DNA from: Candidatus Hydrogenedentota bacterium | GTDB lineage: Bacteria > Hydrogenedentota > Hydrogenedentia > Hydrogenedentales > JAEUWI01 | Length of the DNA: 54,257 nt | NCBI GenBank assembly: GCA_016182605.1 | Contig: JACPGE010000002.1 | Span: forward strand, 1-54,257 | Direction: 5' to 3' | Shown here: piece by piece, positions 23,448 through 41,126 of the stretch | Layout of the letters: the number at the start of each line of letters is the position of its first letter | Position numbering within the stretch: the stretch's first letter is position 1 | Notes under the pieces: model-generated | What the model saw: only the letters and a program-made list of their open reading frames with translations | The model's database searches: none | Told to the model about the DNA's origin: nothing | Translations under genes and position numbers: made by a program

Positions 23448-26400
23448 ATGAAATTGTCCCCCTTTCTGCTGATTGCCCTCACTATTGCGGGCACGGCCGC
23501 GCCGGCCCTCGCACAACCCGCACAGGGGCAAACGGGCGCCGCGCTCTTCGAACGCGGCAACCTCATGGCGTGGTGTATCGTGCCCTTCGATGCGAAAAAG
23601 CGCGGCCCGGAGGCACGGGCCGAGATGCTCTCCCGCATGGGCTTCACCCAGCTCGCCTACGACTGGCGGGCGGAGCACATCCCCACCTTTGACGAGGAGA
23701 TCGAGACCCTCGCGCGCTATGGCATTGCGCTGCGGGCCTTCTGGTTTCCCGGGGCGCTGAACGAAGAGGCCGAGGCCATTCTCGCGGCCCTGAAGCGCCA
23801 CAACGTGCAGACCGAATTGTGGATCACCATGGGCGGCGGCGAGATCGTCTGCACGCCCGAGGAACAGACGAAACGCGTGGCGGAACACGTGGCCGCCATA
23901 CGCCCCCTGGCGGAACGGGCCGCGCAGCAGGGCTGCAAAGTGGGCCTCTACAACCATGGAAGCTGGTTTGGCGAGCCCGGGAACCAGATCGCGATTGTCG
24001 AGGCGCTGAAGACCCAGGGCATCACGAATGTGGGCCTTGTCTATAACCAGCACCACGGTCACCATCATGTGGCCCGATTCCCGGAACTCCTGAAGCAGAT
24101 GCTGCCCTACCTCTACTGCATCAACCTCAACGGCATGGAGCCGGACGGCGATCGGACCGGGAAGAAGATCTGGCCCCTGGGTTCCGGGTCGCAGGACAAG
24201 GAGTTGCTGCGCACGATACGCGACAGCGGCTATACCGGGCCCATCGGCATTCTGAACCACACAGAGAAAGACGCCGAGGCCGTGCTGATGGACAACCTGG
24301 CCGGGCTGGACTGGATCGTGCCGCAGTTGGACGGCACCGCCCCCACCGCGCCACGCCCCAACCTCCTACCCGAAGAGCAGGGCGCGAACGTGGCGGCGCC
24401 GGGCCGCTCCGAGGCCTTTGGACTCGCGCTTACGGGCGGCCTCGTGGCGCCGGGCAACGCGGCCTTCCGCACACCGCCCTTCACGGTGGAGTGCCGGACG
24501 AAATTGAACGGCGCGGCCAACTTCAACATCCTCGTGGCAAACGACACGAAGGCTTCCGGCACGCACTGGGAGATTTTCACCGAAGCGGGAACGGGCCGGC
24601 TCGCGGTGTACACGCCGGGCCTCAGCCCCGATCACCTGCGCACGGACTGGGCGCTGACCGACGGCAAGTGGCGCCACGTGGCGATGCAGGTGGGCATGGA
24701 CACGATCGCGCTCTACGTGGATGGCAACCTCATCGCAGAGCAGGCCTTCACCGTGAAGGGCCTGGCGCCCGTGCCGGGGAGCCTGGCCATCGGGCGGCTC
24801 GTGGAAGGCGGCCTCTCCTGCGATGGCGCGATGGACGACGTGCGCATCTCCTCGGGCCTGCGGAAGATTGAGGACGGGGATAGGCCGCTGCAAGAGGACG
24901 CATCGACGCTCGCCCTGTGGTCCTTCGACGATCTGCCCAAGACCGCCCAAGCCCCGGCGCGACCGGCGCCCGTGGAGGATGCTGCACGGCGGGCAGCCCT
25001 GCCGGAATTCCAGATCATTCCCGCGGCGGACACGGAATCCCTCGCGCCTGCCCAGGCCCCGCCGCCGGGCTACTACACCACCTGGCAACGTTCCCACGGC
25101 GATGCGCACAACACGCGCTATGCGGCGGCGCGCGAGATCACGCGGGAAAACGTGGGGCAGTTGCAGCAGGCCTGGATCTACCGTTCCGGCGACGGCCCGG
25201 AGAACGTGCAGTGCAATCCCATCGTGGTGCGGGATCTTCTCATCGCCCCCACGTCCGGCCAGCACCTGGTGGCGCTGGACGCGGCGCGCGGCATGGAACG
25301 ATGGCGATTCAAACCGGAGGGCCGGCCCGCGCACCGGGGCCTCGTCTATTGGCCCGGCGACGCAACGAACGCGGAGCGCCTCCTGGTGCCCGCCGGCGAG
25401 TACCTCTATGCCCTGGACCCCACCACGGGAGCACCGCTTGACGCCTTCGGCCAGCACGGCCGGATCGCCTGTGGTGTCTCCGTGGTGGCGCCCGCGGTCT
25501 ATCAAAACGTGCTTGTCGTGCCCGGCTACCTACGGGACGTGTGGGGATTCGATGTGCGCAGCGGCGCGCGGCTCTGGACCTTTCACACCATCCCGGCCGA
25601 CGGCGAATGGGGACGCGACACGTGGGACGAACCCGAAGAGGGCGCGAACTGCTGGGGCGGCATGGCCCTCGATGAAACACGCGGCATCGCCTACATCTCC
25701 ACGGGATCGCCGAAGGACAATTTTGCGGGCAACACGCATCAGGGCCAAAACCTCTTCGCGAATTGTGTAATCGCCCTCAATGCGCTCACCGGCGAGCGGC
25801 TGTGGCATTTTCAGGAAATCCGCCATGACATTTGGGACCTGGACCTCCCCGCGCCGCCGAACCTCGTGAGCATCGGCTGGAAGGGCAAGCGTGTGGACGC
25901 CGTCGCGCAGGTCACCAAGATGGGCAACACGCTGCTGCTCGACCGCGTATCCGGAGCGCCCCTCTTCCCTTTTCGGTTGCGCCGGGCACCGGCTTCCCTG
26001 CTGCCCGGCGAACGCACCTGGCCCTACCAGCCCGCGCCTGAACTGCCCGAGCCTTTCGCGCGCGTGGGCTTCACCCCGGGCGACGTCACCGAGCGGACCC
26101 GGGAAGCCCACACCGCCATCATGCTGCGTCTCGCCAGCGCGAACACCGGCTGGTTCGCGCCCTTTGAAGAGAACAAGGGCACGGCGCTCTACGGGTTTCA
26201 CGGCGGCGCGGAATGGACCGGCGCGGCCTTCGATCCGGAATCGGGCCGGCTCTATGTTTCGGCCAACAACATTCCCTGGCTGGTCACGGTCTTTCGTCCC
26301 GATCCCGCCGTGCATGCGCCTGGGGCGCCCCCCACACGGGGACGGGTGGTCTACGAAGAGCTGTGCATGAAGTGCCACGGGACGGATCGCTTCGGTGTGG

Positions 26401-27020
26401 GCATGGCCCCGCCGCTGCACCGCCTGAAGCACCGCTTTAACGACGACGAAGTGCGGCAACTCCTGAAGACCGGGCGCAATGGCATGCCCGTGGCCGAGGG
26501 ACTGAAGGACGAAGACGTGCAGCCGCTGCTGGACTACCTCTTCCTGCGCGACGTGCCTGCGGAGGCCCTGAGGGACGCGCCTGAAGGCGAACTGCGCTAC
26601 ACCTACAATGGCTATCCCAAACTGCTCGATCCTGATGGCTATCCCGGCTGTAAGCCGCCCTGGGGCACCTTGAACTGCATCGACCTCGCGTCGGGCAAGC
26701 TCGTGTGGCAGGTGCCGCTGGGGGTGTACCCGGACCTGGCGGAATGGGGCGAGGACGATACCGGCGCGGAAAACTTCGGGGGACCCACGGTGACTGCGGG
26801 GGGCGTGGTGTTCTGCGCGGGCGCCGCAGACAACCTGATCCGCGGCTTCGACTCGGCAACCGGCGCAGTATTGTGGGAGCACAAACTGCCCTTCGGCGGC
26901 TATGCGCCACCTGCGGTCTACGAGGTGGGCGGCAAGGAGTATGTGGTTATCCCGGCCACGGGTGGCGGGAAGCTGGGTACAGAGAAGGGCGATGCGTGGG
27001 TGGCGTTTGCGCTGCCGTGA
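23448..27020 (+). CDS. Exported fusion of TIM-barrel isomerase-like, LamG, PQQ quinoprotein propeller and cytochrome c
   Basis: A 1190-residue protein with signal peptide MKLSPFLLIALTIAGTAAPALA. Residues 30-290 resemble the xylose isomerase-like/AP-endonuclease-2 TIM barrel (HNVQTELWITMGGGEIV, NQHHGHHHVARFPELL, NLNGMEPDGD), with metal-ligand-type Glu and His. Residues 320-500 resemble a LamG/concanavalin sandwich. From about 540 a PQQ-type eight-bladed propeller begins (WQRSHGDAHNTRYAA), with tryptophan-docking repeats such as ALDAARGMERWRF. A c-type haem domain interrupts it, with CMKCH at residues 973-977 and distal Met in NGMPVAEG. Propeller blades resume after it and end at 1190. The architecture suggests oxidation of a sugar-derived substrate at PQQ, electrons leaving through the fused haem, with binding and isomerising modules attached. 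PQQ binding is inferred; no PQQ synthesis gene is nearby. A shorter paralogue is at 39018. Confidence 0.88.
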   Translation: MKLSPFLLIALTIAGTAAPALAQPAQGQTGAALFERGNLMAWCIVPFDAKKRGPEARAEMLSRMGFTQLAYDWRAEHIPTFDEEIETLARYGIALRAFWFPGALNEEAEAILAALKRHNVQTELWITMGGGEIVCTPEEQTKRVAEHVAAIRPLAERAAQQGCKVGLYNHGSWFGEPGNQIAIVEALKTQGITNVGLVYNQHHGHHHVARFPELLKQMLPYLYCINLNGMEPDGDRTGKKIWPLGSGSQDKELLRTIRDSGYTGPIGILNHTEKDAEAVLMDNLAGLDWIVPQLDGTAPTAPRPNLLPEEQGANVAAPGRSEAFGLALTGGLVAPGNAAFRTPPFTVECRTKLNGAANFNILVANDTKASGTHWEIFTEAGTGRLAVYTPGLSPDHLRTDWALTDGKWRHVAMQVGMDTIALYVDGNLIAEQAFTVKGLAPVPGSLAIGRLVEGGLSCDGAMDDVRISSGLRKIEDGDRPLQEDASTLALWSFDDLPKTAQAPARPAPVEDAARRAALPEFQIIPAADTESLAPAQAPPPGYYTTWQRSHGDAHNTRYAAAREITRENVGQLQQAWIYRSGDGPENVQCNPIVVRDLLIAPTSGQHLVALDAARGMERWRFKPEGRPAHRGLVYWPGDATNAERLLVPAGEYLYALDPTTGAPLDAFGQHGRIACGVSVVAPAVYQNVLVVPGYLRDVWGFDVRSGARLWTFHTIPADGEWGRDTWDEPEEGANCWGGMALDETRGIAYISTGSPKDNFAGNTHQGQNLFANCVIALNALTGERLWHFQEIRHDIWDLDLPAPPNLVSIGWKGKRVDAVAQVTKMGNTLLLDRVSGAPLFPFRLRRAPASLLPGERTWPYQPAPELPEPFARVGFTPGDVTERTREAHTAIMLRLASANTGWFAPFEENKGTALYGFHGGAEWTGAAFDPESGRLYVSANNIPWLVTVFRPDPAVHAPGAPPTRGRVVYEELCMKCHGTDRFGVGMAPPLHRLKHRFNDDEVRQLLKTGRNGMPVAEGLKDEDVQPLLDYLFLRDVPAEALRDAPEGELRYTYNGYPKLLDPDGYPGCKPPWGTLNCIDLASGKLVWQVPLGVYPDLAEWGEDDTGAENFGGPTVTAGGVVFCAGAADNLIRGFDSATGAVLWEHKLPFGGYAPPAVYEVGGKEYVVIPATGGGKLGTEKGDAWVAFALP

Positions 27021-38026: not shown

Positions 38027-38998
38027 GTGCGACAATTTGCCCTTTTCGCCGCCCTGTGTCTCCTGTCTCTGGCCGGCTCCGCCGCGAGCCCCTTTGACGG
38101 CGCTCCCGCCGCGCCTCCAGGCTATGCCACGGTGCAGGAGGTTCATGACGCGCTCTTGAAGGGCGAAGTGGCCATGATCAAGGCCCCCGATACGCCCCCA
38201 GACTCGGTCGCCATCACTAAAGATCTTGTATACGCTTCACCGGACGGCCAGGATCTGAAGCTGGACCTTTTCGAGCCCAAAGATGCGAAGCAGGCCCGGC
38301 CGCTCTTGCTCTTCATTCATGGCGGTGGCTGGAAGAAAGGCAAGAAGGAGGACTACATCTACTACAACCTCAAGTTCGCCGAATTGGGTTACGTGACCGC
38401 GTCGATGCAGTACCGGCTTGCGCCGGATCATCATTTCCCGAAGGCCCTCCAGGACGTTCGTTGCGCGCTGGCCTATTTGCGCACCCACGCCGCGGAGCAT
38501 CACATCGACGCCACGAAGATCGCGGTGCTGGGCGGCAGCGCGGGCGGGCACCTCTCGCTGATGGCCGGATACGCCACGGATCCGGCGTTGAGCTGCCCCG
38601 GCGCCGCGCCGGAGGTGAGCGGGCCGGTGCAGGCTGTGGTGAATTTTTACGGGGTGGTGGACTGCACACCGGAGTACGCGCGGGAAGCGGGCGAAGTGAC
38701 CGGGTTCCTGGGCACGACCTGGGCAGAGAATCCGGAGATTTTCAAGCAAGCCTCCCCCATCTTCCACCTGGCCAAGGGCGCGCCGCCCACGCTGACCTTT
38801 CACGGGACGATCGATGAACTCGTGCCGATCGAGCAGGCGGATCAACTGCACAAGAAACTCGATGAATTGGGCGTGCCCAACTACTGCGATCGCGTGGAAG
38901 GCTGGCCGCACACGATGGACCTTGCCGTGCCGGTCAATGCGCGGTGCTGTTACGTGATTGAGAAGTTCCTGGCGATGCACCTGCCGCTGCCGAAGTGA
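38027..38998 (+). CDS. Secreted alpha/beta hydrolase, BD-FAE/acetyl-esterase type
   Basis: A 323-residue enzyme from GTG 38027, with GGAGG (38014-38018) eight bases upstream. Signal peptide MRQFALFAALCLLSLAGSAAS. The fold is a hormone-sensitive-lipase/BD-FAE-like hydrolase: HGGGW oxyanion motif, VLGGSAGGHLSLM nucleophile elbow (Ser), acidic residue near DELVPIEQ and His in WPHTMD. Relatives remove acetyl or feruloyl groups from plant polysaccharides, so a role on plant-type carbohydrate is plausible. The quinoprotein gene begins 19 bases later on the same strand, suggesting co-expression and a shared substrate. Confidence 0.9.
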   Translation: MRQFALFAALCLLSLAGSAASPFDGAPAAPPGYATVQEVHDALLKGEVAMIKAPDTPPDSVAITKDLVYASPDGQDLKLDLFEPKDAKQARPLLLFIHGGGWKKGKKEDYIYYNLKFAELGYVTASMQYRLAPDHHFPKALQDVRCALAYLRTHAAEHHIDATKIAVLGGSAGGHLSLMAGYATDPALSCPGAAPEVSGPVQAVVNFYGVVDCTPEYAREAGEVTGFLGTTWAENPEIFKQASPIFHLAKGAPPTLTFHGTIDELVPIEQADQLHKKLDELGVPNYCDRVEGWPHTMDLAVPVNARCCYVIEKFLAMHLPLPK

Positions 38999-39017
38999 TG
39001 TGAAGACCGCACCGGGA

Positions 39018-41126
39018 ATGCGCACCATGGCAATCTGGAAAATGGCTGCTCTCTGTATTGCCTTGGCGGGCGCGGCGGTGGCGCAGGACGCGGATTGGCC
39101 GGTCTATCTCGGCGACGCGCACAGCAGCCACTACTCCGCCCTGACCCAAATCGATCGCGGCAATGTGACGCGGCTCGTGCCCGCATGGGAATATGCCAGT
39201 GAAGGCGGGGTGGGCAAGGGCCAGATGCAGTGCAATCCCCTTATCCTTGACGGCATCCTCTATGGGGTGTCGCCCATGATGAAGGTCTTCGCGCTCCGTG
39301 CGGACACCGGCAGGGAGCTGTGGGCCTTCACTCCGGAGAAGCCTCGGGCGGCGGTATGCCGCGGGCTGGCGTGGTGGCAGGGGGGCGAAAAAAAGCGCCT
39401 CTTTGCCGCGTTGGGTAGCGCGCTGTATGCACTCGATGCCATCGACGGGCGGCCTGATGGCGGCTTTGGCAACGGCGGCATGGTGGACCTGCGGGAGAAC
39501 CTGGGCCGCGAGGGGGAAAGCGCCTTTGCCATGGCGACCTCGCCGGGCGTTGTTTACCGGGACCTGATCATCATGGGGACGCGGGTGAGTGAGGCGCTGC
39601 CGGCCGCGCCCGGACACATCCGCGCGTACGACGTGCGCACGGGCGCCTTGCGCTGGACCTTTCACACCATTCCGCAGCCCGGGGAGTTCGGATATGAGAC
39701 GTGGCCCGAAGGCGCGCACGAACGCGCGGGCGGCGCCAACTGCTGGGCGGGCATGAGTCTCGATCGCGAACGCGGCATGGTCTATGTGCCCACGGGCAGC
39801 GCGGCCTTCGACTTCTACGGCGCAGACCGGCACGGGCAGAACTTGTTTGCGAATTGTCTTCTCGCGCTGGATGCCGCGACCGGAGAACGCAAGTGGCACT
39901 ACCAGTTGGTGCACCATGATCTGTGGGATCGCGATCTCCCCGCGCCGCCAAACCTGCTCACGGTCACACACGACGGGACGCGCATCGACGCGGTTGCGCA
40001 GATCACGAAATCGGCGCATGTGTTCCTCTTCAATCGCGAGACGGGCGAACCCCTCTTCGCCATTGAGGAACGTCCCGCGCCGCAATCGACGCTGGAAGGC
40101 GAGGCCGCGTGGCCGACCCAGCCCGCGCCCGTACTGCCGCCGCAGTTCTCCCGCGGCAGCTTCGATCAGAAGGACATCACCCGCCGCACGCCGGAAGCGC
40201 AGGAGTATGTGCGCAAGCGCTGGGACGCGATCCGCCGGGGCAAGCCCTTCCTTCCGCCAAGCCGCGAGGGCACGCTCATCTTCCCCGGCTTCGATGGGGG
40301 CGGCGAATGGGGCGGTGCGGCCGTGGATCCGAAGGGCGTACTTTACGTCAATGCGAGCGAGATGCCGTGGATACTCACCATGGTCAACATTGCGCAGGCG
40401 GGCGGCGACGCGAAGACGCAACAGGGCCTGATGATCTACGCGCAACAGTGCCTGTTTTGTCATGGTCCGGATCGGGAGGGGAACCCATACAGCATGTTTC
40501 CCGGGCTGAAGGACCTTGCCCAGCGCCTGCCGCGGGAACAGGCGGAGATCATCACGCGCGATGGCAAGGGCTTTATGCCGGCCTTTGCGCACCTCGGCGA
40601 GCGCAACCTGAGCACGGTACTGGATTATATTTATGGCGCGGACACGCCGGCGAATGCCCCTGAAACGCCTGCCGCAGAGGCCCCGCCGCTTCCGCCGGAC
40701 TACCGCCACACGGGCTACGACCGCTTCGTGGATCAAGAGGGCTATCCCGCCATCACGCCGCCCTGGGGCACACTGAATGCGATCGATATGAACACCGGCA
40801 CGATCTTGTGGAAGTCGGTGCTCGGCGATACCCCGGAATTGCGCGAAAAGGGCATGGAACAGACCGGCACGGAGAACTATGGCGGACCCGTGGTCACTGC
40901 GGGTGGTCTGGTGTTTGCCGGCGCGACGAAAGATGCGATGTTTCACGCCTTCGACAAGGACACCGGCGCGCTCCTGTGGGAAACGAAACTGCCCTTCGCA
41001 GGATACGCCACGCCCGCAACCTATATGGTCAACGGCAAACAATTCATCGTCATCGCCGCAGCCGGCGGCAAGATCGGCAGCCCCGAAGGCGACCGTTACG
41101 CGGCCTTTGCGCTGAAGCAGGAGTAA
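39018..41126 (+). CDS. Exported PQQ-type quinoprotein dehydrogenase with inserted cytochrome c domain
   Basis: A 702-residue protein from ATG 39018 (ATG 39027 also possible). Signal peptide ending ALAGAAVAQ. The propeller begins WPVYLGDAHSSHYSALTQI and contains FANCLLALDAATGERKWHYQ and QNLFANC-type blades; propeller repeats are interrupted by a haem domain with CLFCH (478-482) and FMPAFAH as possible distal ligand, then blades resume (PPWGTLNAIDMNTGTILWKS). The blade and haem order matches the second half of the 1190-residue protein at 23448, its paralogue. Probably periplasmic sugar or alcohol oxidation with electrons passed to the fused haem. PQQ dependence is inferred by fold. It follows an esterase in the same operon. 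Confidence 0.9.
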   Translation: MRTMAIWKMAALCIALAGAAVAQDADWPVYLGDAHSSHYSALTQIDRGNVTRLVPAWEYASEGGVGKGQMQCNPLILDGILYGVSPMMKVFALRADTGRELWAFTPEKPRAAVCRGLAWWQGGEKKRLFAALGSALYALDAIDGRPDGGFGNGGMVDLRENLGREGESAFAMATSPGVVYRDLIIMGTRVSEALPAAPGHIRAYDVRTGALRWTFHTIPQPGEFGYETWPEGAHERAGGANCWAGMSLDRERGMVYVPTGSAAFDFYGADRHGQNLFANCLLALDAATGERKWHYQLVHHDLWDRDLPAPPNLLTVTHDGTRIDAVAQITKSAHVFLFNRETGEPLFAIEERPAPQSTLEGEAAWPTQPAPVLPPQFSRGSFDQKDITRRTPEAQEYVRKRWDAIRRGKPFLPPSREGTLIFPGFDGGGEWGGAAVDPKGVLYVNASEMPWILTMVNIAQAGGDAKTQQGLMIYAQQCLFCHGPDREGNPYSMFPGLKDLAQRLPREQAEIITRDGKGFMPAFAHLGERNLSTVLDYIYGADTPANAPETPAAEAPPLPPDYRHTGYDRFVDQEGYPAITPPWGTLNAIDMNTGTILWKSVLGDTPELREKGMEQTGTENYGGPVVTAGGLVFAGATKDAMFHAFDKDTGALLWETKLPFAGYATPATYMVNGKQFIVIAAAGGKIGSPEGDRYAAFALKQE

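Follow-up and report, generated by a model that had tools for sequence, protein, structure and literature searches.

This locus raises the question of what a single, apparently exported protein chain would do when it joins a xylose isomerase-like (XI-like) TIM barrel, a LamG-like domain and a propeller of the pyrroloquinoline quinone (PQQ) type into which a haem c domain is inserted. The gene lies at positions 23448-27020 (+) of contig JACPGE010000002.1, within a stretch of 54,257 nucleotides (the window) from a Candidatus Hydrogenedentota bacterium whose 6.76 Mb genome is 97.9% complete. The observation is real, conserved and partly explained. Its points of interest are a barrel family that appears to have no canonical metal site, the repeated joining of this family to exported redox modules, and a PQQ site that is changed in the clade of its propeller partner.

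The fusion gene and its conservation

The gene is one ATG-started frame of 1190 amino acids (aa) with no internal stop codon. Its parts are listed below together with a stand-alone paralogue in the window that provides an internal control for the fused copy.

23448-27020, + strand: complete four-part fusion gene, 1190 aa (frame, domain profiles, orthologues)
23448-23513, + strand: signal-peptide-like N-terminus, aa 1-22, ending ALA|Q (sequence; orthologues alike)
23544-24365, + strand: XI-like TIM barrel, NLMAWCIVPFD family, aa 33-306 (profile and predicted structure)
23949-23951, + strand: Tyr168, at the site of the first canonical metal Glu (Tyr in 70/70 barrels)
24045-24047, + strand: Asn200, at the site of the canonical metal Asp (Asn in 68/70 barrels)
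24123-24125, + strand: Asn226, at the site of the canonical metal His (Asn in 69/70 barrels)
24252-24254, + strand: Leu269, at the site of the second canonical metal Glu (Leu, Ile or Met in 70/70 barrels)
24378-24947, + strand: LamG-like domain, aa 311-500, Pfam stretch 336-470 (Pfam; missing in L008 and L033)
25068-26312, + strand: PQQ-type propeller, first part, aa 541-955 (Pfam; fold match)
25515-25556, + strand: shortened loop, aa 690-703, where relatives have the metal-ligand Glu or Asp (alignment)
25836-25838, + strand: Asp797, equivalent of Escherichia coli Gcd Asp466, the presumed catalytic base (kept in 25/25 rows)
25917-25919, + strand: Lys824, equivalent of Gcd Lys493 (kept in 25/25 rows)
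26313-26552, + strand: inserted cytochrome c domain, aa 956-1035 (Pfam; alignment)
26364-26378, + strand: haem motif CMKCH, aa 973-977 (alignment)
26628-27017, + strand: PQQ-type propeller, closing part, aa 1061-1190 (Pfam)
38958-41126, + strand: stand-alone PQQ-haem paralogue without a barrel, Glu loop intact

Specifically, Pfam PQQ (PF01011) matched aa 546-954 with 465.8 bits (cut-off 26.7), Laminin_G_3 (PF13385) aa 336-470 with 59.9 bits (cut-off 27.6), Cytochrome_CBB3 (PF13442) aa 961-1031 with 40.3 bits (cut-off 27) and PQQ_2 aa 1073-1158 with 58.5 bits. AP_endonuc_2 (PF01261) matched aa 128-268 with 30.5 bits, marginally below its cut-off of 31.1, which is clearly passed by the barrels of other fusions (44.7 bits in L024, 44.4 in L008 and 40.2 in L033). 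These profiles place barrel, LamG, propeller, haem c and closing blades in the order given by a preliminary description of this DNA, and the CMKCH motif stands where that description had put it. Its proposal that the protein is exported also holds up, given the signal-like N-terminus and the hydrophobic signal-like stretches at the N-termini of the orthologues, of which that of L021 is lipobox-like.

A misassembly or chimeric contig, which the preliminary description had named as a possible source of the fused barrel, has nothing in its favour beyond the fact that the window comes from a draft assembly in 130 contigs. The same domain order is present in ten further genomes, giving 11 non-redundant fusions in Hydrogenedentota and Verrucomicrobiota. 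End-to-end relatives with about 51-65% identity occur in the Hydrogenedentota genomes G001, G003, G006, G018, G028 and G033 and in the Verrucomicrobiota-type loci L022 and L023, and the same order minus LamG occurs in G010 and in the isolate Chthoniobacter flavus Ellin428 (L033). Since the order recurs in ten other genomes, including that of an isolate, the fusion is not an assembly error, and we give an artefact practically no weight.

The frame is conserved far beyond chance, and both barrel and propeller are under strong purifying selection. The ratio of nonsynonymous to synonymous substitution rates (dN/dS), taken from two species pairs, was about 0.03-0.11 for the barrel, 0.06-0.17 for the propeller plus haem and 0.17 for LamG, values that are rough because dS is near saturation. 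LamG is dispensable, as two fusions do without it and one of these, in G010, is congeneric with the LamG-bearing fusion of G033 (L024 in Candidatus Hydrogenedentota record JADLHJ010000003), from which it differs in this respect by one clean block of about 190 residues. A search for gene neighbours, as the preliminary description had suggested, revealed no shared operon around the fusion, the neighbours varying between the genomes compared. In the window, a gene of the periplasmic pectate lyase family PF06917 (28583-30109, +) lies 1.6 kb downstream of the fusion, which may be chance.

Among the loci collected, L027:8001-9281 resembles the four-part fusion minus most of its middle (query 368-1039, no Ns) and would be either a degraded copy or an assembly deletion. 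L034, L035, L036 and L039 are near-identical to each other, and the titles of L022, L026 and L039 as Akkermansia muciniphila or Kuenenia are doubtful for these metagenome bins.

A barrel family with replaced metal ligands

Modelled by itself with AlphaFold, the barrel reached a predicted local distance difference test score (pLDDT) of 90.5, and the model matched XI-like barrels at Z of about 20 with no single enzyme preferred (2q02, for example, gave Z 20.3 and a root mean square deviation of 3.3 over 244 aligned residues). The fold neighbours include the 3-keto-glucoside 4-epimerase YcjR, D-tagatose 3-epimerase and the C-glycoside-cleaving DgpB-C. Keto-sugar barrels such as YcjR, D-tagatose 3-epimerase and UlaE have the same fold (Z about 19-20) and use a divalent metal, whereas the family of the fusion barrel is without the canonical ligands, exported and fused to redox modules.

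We take the metal-ligating residues of canonical XI-like relatives to be Glu, Asp, His and Glu. Among 70 non-redundant family barrels these positions hold, respectively, Tyr in all 70, Asn in 68, Asn in 69 and Leu, Ile or Met in all 70. The positions were mapped by sequence alignment and not from a metal-bound structure, using a HMMER alignment to MJ1311 and an hhalign alignment to a canonical Spirosoma barrel that agree where both are clear; the latter is clear at both Glu positions and at the His and is gapped at the Asp. Aligning the barrel profile by hhalign to the single barrels Hyi, YcjR, UlaE and that of Sphingobium gave no usable alignment. On this mapping the barrel family is without the canonical metal site of XI-like isomerases and epimerases, a site that 3-keto-glycoside lyases of the XI-like fold combine with an acid-base His. 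With these ligands replaced among the 70 relatives, the proposal in the preliminary description that the barrel isomerises a sugar is not supported as far as known barrel chemistry goes.

That description had regarded a loss of the barrel's active-site residues in homologues as evidence against its reading. Such a loss is seen for the canonical metal site, but a different set of invariant residues sits on the catalytic side, so the barrel is not decayed. Of 58 positions that are at least 90% conserved in the 70 barrels, 29 fall on the C-terminal ends of the strands, which comprise 64 of 267 sites (p = 7e-7), and the opposite face shows no enrichment (p = 0.88). The conserved residues include Asp48, Tyr71, Asp72, Arg74, Tyr168, Asn169, His170, Trp173, Asn200, His202, His203, Asn226, Asn228 and His271, with invariant or near-invariant Tyr168, His170, His203, His271 and Asp48 on the catalytic face. 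A sister barrel family with about 30% identity (L072-L077) is also without the canonical ligands and carries the motifs LYPH..W, MFNLCH and SING.

Matches below 1e-90 place family members in 14 of 68 Hydrogenedentota; at E <= 1e-50 they occur in 18 of 388 genomes from the Chthoniobacter phylum and in 28 of 392 from that of a Planctomycetaceae genome. We read 40 loci from these searches in full. Half of them (20/40) are stand-alone barrels of 285-375 aa, and 18 are barrels fused to DUF6797, of which 17 have a cupredoxin, 12 a LamG and nine a CxxCH motif. The remaining two are a barrel with a haem-binding protein of the Planctomycetes-Verrucomicrobia-Chlamydiae (PVC) type and a barrel with an alpha-L-fucosidase of glycoside hydrolase (GH) family 29. 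A family barrel also follows a four-CxxCH cytochrome in one chain in L017 (Hydrogenedentota), stand-alone barrels in L028 and L029 adjoin PSCyt1/DUF1549/DUF1553 and DUF1501 genes, and the barrel gene of L164 overlaps a separate PQQ-haem gene. The barrel family is a module that has repeatedly been combined with exported redox parts and, in one case, with a GH29 fucosidase. A quick barrel tree requires at least 15 architecture changes, although many of its nodes are weak and leave the count of fusion events uncertain.

The propeller, its inserted haem and the sugar context

The propeller matched sorbose dehydrogenase 4mh1 at Z 33.7, and its best NCBIfam match is TIGR03074 at 312.8 bits, short of the cut-off of 832.65. 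We aligned 25 propellers, comprising the 11 fusions, the unfused L164 and Spirosoma proteins, eleven other relatives and E. coli Gcd; Gcd R201, H262 and T424 aligned unreliably and were left out of the comparison. Equivalents of Gcd Asp466, Lys493 (which we take to contact PQQ) and Trp404 are present in every row and link the fusion to membrane Gcd and the TIGR03074 glucose-quinate-shikimate family. In contrast to these, the fusion has an inserted haem, no membrane domain and no Asp354/Asn355 loop. This stretch is shorter by about eight to ten residues in 11/11 fusions, and in it E. coli Gcd and the eleven relatives other than L164 and Spirosoma carry Glu or Asp. Directly after the deletion the fusions have a conserved Asp (R/G-D-V) that could be a replacement ligand for the PQQ metal. 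With the loop left out, a tree groups all fused propellers in one clade (100/100) that is sister (96/99) to L164 plus Spirosoma.

In the cytochrome c insert both the CMKCH motif and the distal Met-Pro (GMP, about aa 1013) are conserved. The preliminary description had treated this inserted haem as a special feature, but it is common in unfused relatives. It is present in Sphingobium and Emticicia proteins annotated as hypothetical or as PQQ-dependent dehydrogenase, and the window paralogue at 38958-41126 (+) has it at the same place. We therefore rejected it as a novelty, and since unfused relatives share it, the insertion predates the fusion. These internal-haem dehydrogenases, together with that of Spirosoma, are about 33-45% identical to the fused propeller and likewise have the haem before the last blades and the catalytic Asp and Lys, but they are without barrel and LamG, and most keep the Glu/Asp loop, which Spirosoma has lost as the fusions have. 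Type II quinohaemoprotein alcohol dehydrogenases (1kb0, 1kv9, 1yiq) also combine propeller and haem c in one chain; however, their haem is C-terminal, whereas that of the fusion is at aa 956-1035 with the blades of aa 1061-1190 after it, and they are without the added barrel and LamG. The window paralogue, which keeps the Glu loop, is overlapped by a BD-FAE family esterase gene (the pair spans 38027-41126, +).

Unfused relatives in Spirosoma and Sphingobium are found among sugar genes, and the sugar context given in the preliminary description is likely correct. In Spirosoma, an unfused family barrel and a PQQ-haem partner share one polysaccharide-utilisation locus. On the Spirosoma oryzicola plasmid the order is PQQ-haem, GH78 rhamnosidase (a gene that spans the plasmid origin and is missing from the record's gene table), a small opposite-strand gene, GH5, SusC, SusD, sugar isomerase, Gfo/Idh/MocA oxidoreductase, dioxygenase, family barrel, GH140 and ThuA. 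In Sphingobium, a gene for a canonical metal-type XI-like barrel overlaps the PQQ-haem gene in an operon that also holds a permease, a Gfo/Idh/MocA oxidoreductase and a cytochrome c. Here the same two types of enzyme are paired independently.

A proposed two-step sugar oxidation and competing explanations

The reading that we prefer, and that we consider plausible rather than probable, is that of a secreted enzyme that oxidises and processes a sugar in two steps, using metal-independent chemistry in the barrel. The propeller, a relative of glucose and quinate PQQ dehydrogenases, would take electrons from a sugar hydroxyl to give a keto-sugar or lactone, and these electrons would pass to the haem c in the same chain and on to the respiratory chain. 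Before or after this oxidation the barrel would act on the same sugar by acid-base chemistry without the usual divalent metal, with epimerisation or beta-elimination of a keto-glycoside as the likeliest reaction type, and LamG would help hold the glycan as an optional part. A precedent is the oxidation of a glycoside at C3, after which a lyase that depends on Mn2+ and has a catalytic His carries out a beta-elimination (PMC13273386). DgpB-C, found among the barrel fold matches, is a lyase of this kind, and the DgpB-C and PuCGE C-glycoside lyases offer a model for keto-sugar chemistry after sugar oxidation. By analogy, the fusion may have the same order of oxidation and then barrel, minus the metal, in one exported chain.

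Two-step processing is supported by the conserved order in the 11 fusions, purifying selection, conservation on the catalytic face of the barrel and its keto-sugar fold neighbours. Further support comes from the propeller sisters L164 and Spirosoma, which travel with a barrel, from the sugar clusters, from the GH29 fusion and from the Sphingobium pair. Several results weigh against it. The carboxylate that we take to be the PQQ-metal ligand (Gcd Asp354, or Glu177 of methanol dehydrogenase) is missing in all fused propellers and in both sisters, and the fusions have Ser or Thr in place of Gcd Asn607. As the unfused sisters are without the carboxylate too, its loss probably preceded the fusion and took place in a PQQ lineage that had by then become associated with the barrel. 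A profile search of the 97.9% complete source genome found no pqqC and no pqqE over its cut-off, so that PQQ would need to be scavenged; uptake of PQQ from outside is possible. The full-length model (pLDDT 73.7, predicted template modelling score 0.51) is too weak to give a PQQ-haem distance, and none of the barrel family's members has a known activity. Oxidation at PQQ, as suggested in the preliminary description, is favoured by the retained catalytic Asp and Lys and called into question by the loop missing in 11/11 fusions and by a genome in which neither pqqC nor pqqE was found.

The loop and the pqq genes also favour what our ranking makes the main rival, an "empty quinoprotein" in which a propeller without PQQ is a scaffold that places the haem by the barrel. 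The redox step would then fall to the barrel itself or to an unknown cofactor, and the barrel-haem pair would do something else. The metal-ligand loop is missing in 13/13 barrel-associated propellers and has Glu or Asp in the 12 other rows including Gcd. The seven other Hydrogenedentota genomes with a fusion, several of them incomplete, also gave no pqqC by profile and no pqqE over the cut-off, whereas pqqE, along with a pqqC divided between two contigs, is present in G009, a fusion-free genome with many PQQ-type genes. The electron carriers joined to the barrel family are moreover varied, comprising haem c, cupredoxin and multihaem c, which would suit electron transfer in the service of the barrel. 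We nonetheless consider an empty propeller unlikely, as all rows retain the catalytic Asp, the Lys and the floor Trp and the fusion-bearing Chthoniobacter flavus has both pqqC and pqqE. The precedent for it lies in the name of TIGR04528 (acido-empty-quinoprotein), which was matched at only 158.8 bits against a cut-off of 650, and we know of no redox cofactors in XI-like barrels.

Somewhat less likely again is a barrel that is a non-catalytic sugar-binding domain presenting substrate to the propeller. Replacement of all four canonical ligands, the adjoining LamG and fusion to several unlike enzymes would agree with this, but about 20 stand-alone copies exist, and the conserved His, Tyr, Asn, Asp and Trp on the catalytic face exceed the usual needs of binding. 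The picture in the preliminary description, an ordinary metal-dependent sugar isomerase or epimerase with an ordinary PQQ dehydrogenase, draws on the barrel's fold and Pfam family and on the Sphingobium gene pairs with canonical barrels; with the ligands replaced family-wide and the PQQ metal loop absent, it is improbable as a whole and largely refuted for the barrel. A broader joint reading, which we regard as doubtful, would have exported, modular XI-like barrels with a new active site in place of the metal site that were linked several times to different electron carriers of the periplasm, a propeller with altered or no PQQ, and an undescribed sugar redox chemistry of barrel and haem. Since the barrel is without the metal site of sugar isomerases and the propeller without a loop that holds the cofactor, the chemistry of the fusion is probably new. 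Literature searches on this architecture, on DUF6797 and on fusions of PQQ propeller and TIM barrel found no description, many subscription journals being outside their coverage.

A published parallel is a survey of freshwater Verrucomicrobia that describes cytochrome-bearing proteins of unassigned function with carbohydrate-binding modules including LamG (PMC5615132). These PSCyt/PSD proteins occur in overlapping phyla and combine haem with LamG-type modules, and some stand-alone family barrels adjoin genes of this type; in contrast to the fusion, the text mentions no TIM barrel, and a combination of PQQ propeller and this barrel was not found there. Many exported haem proteins of PVC bacteria and their neighbours have no assigned function and may play a part in polysaccharide turnover. 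This barrel family gives a concrete and testable entry into their chemistry, as it links PQQ-haem proteins, DUF6797-cupredoxin proteins, PSCyt/DUF1501 operons and PVC-type haem proteins through a common partner with a sugar context. It may also offer an XI-like barrel that works without metal, and a propeller of the PQQ type whose cofactor site has changed.

Two further observations concern haem and LamG proteins. In L151 (5118-8381, -) a triple-CxxCH protein with HZS_alpha and F5/8 domains directly adjoins a stand-alone family barrel. The Hydrogenedentota loci L169-L172 encode proteins of 1366-1439 aa with a LamG like that of the fusion, and the two that were scanned (L169 and L170) have a hydrazine synthase alpha middle domain and a Mala_s_1-like propeller, here outside anammox bacteria.

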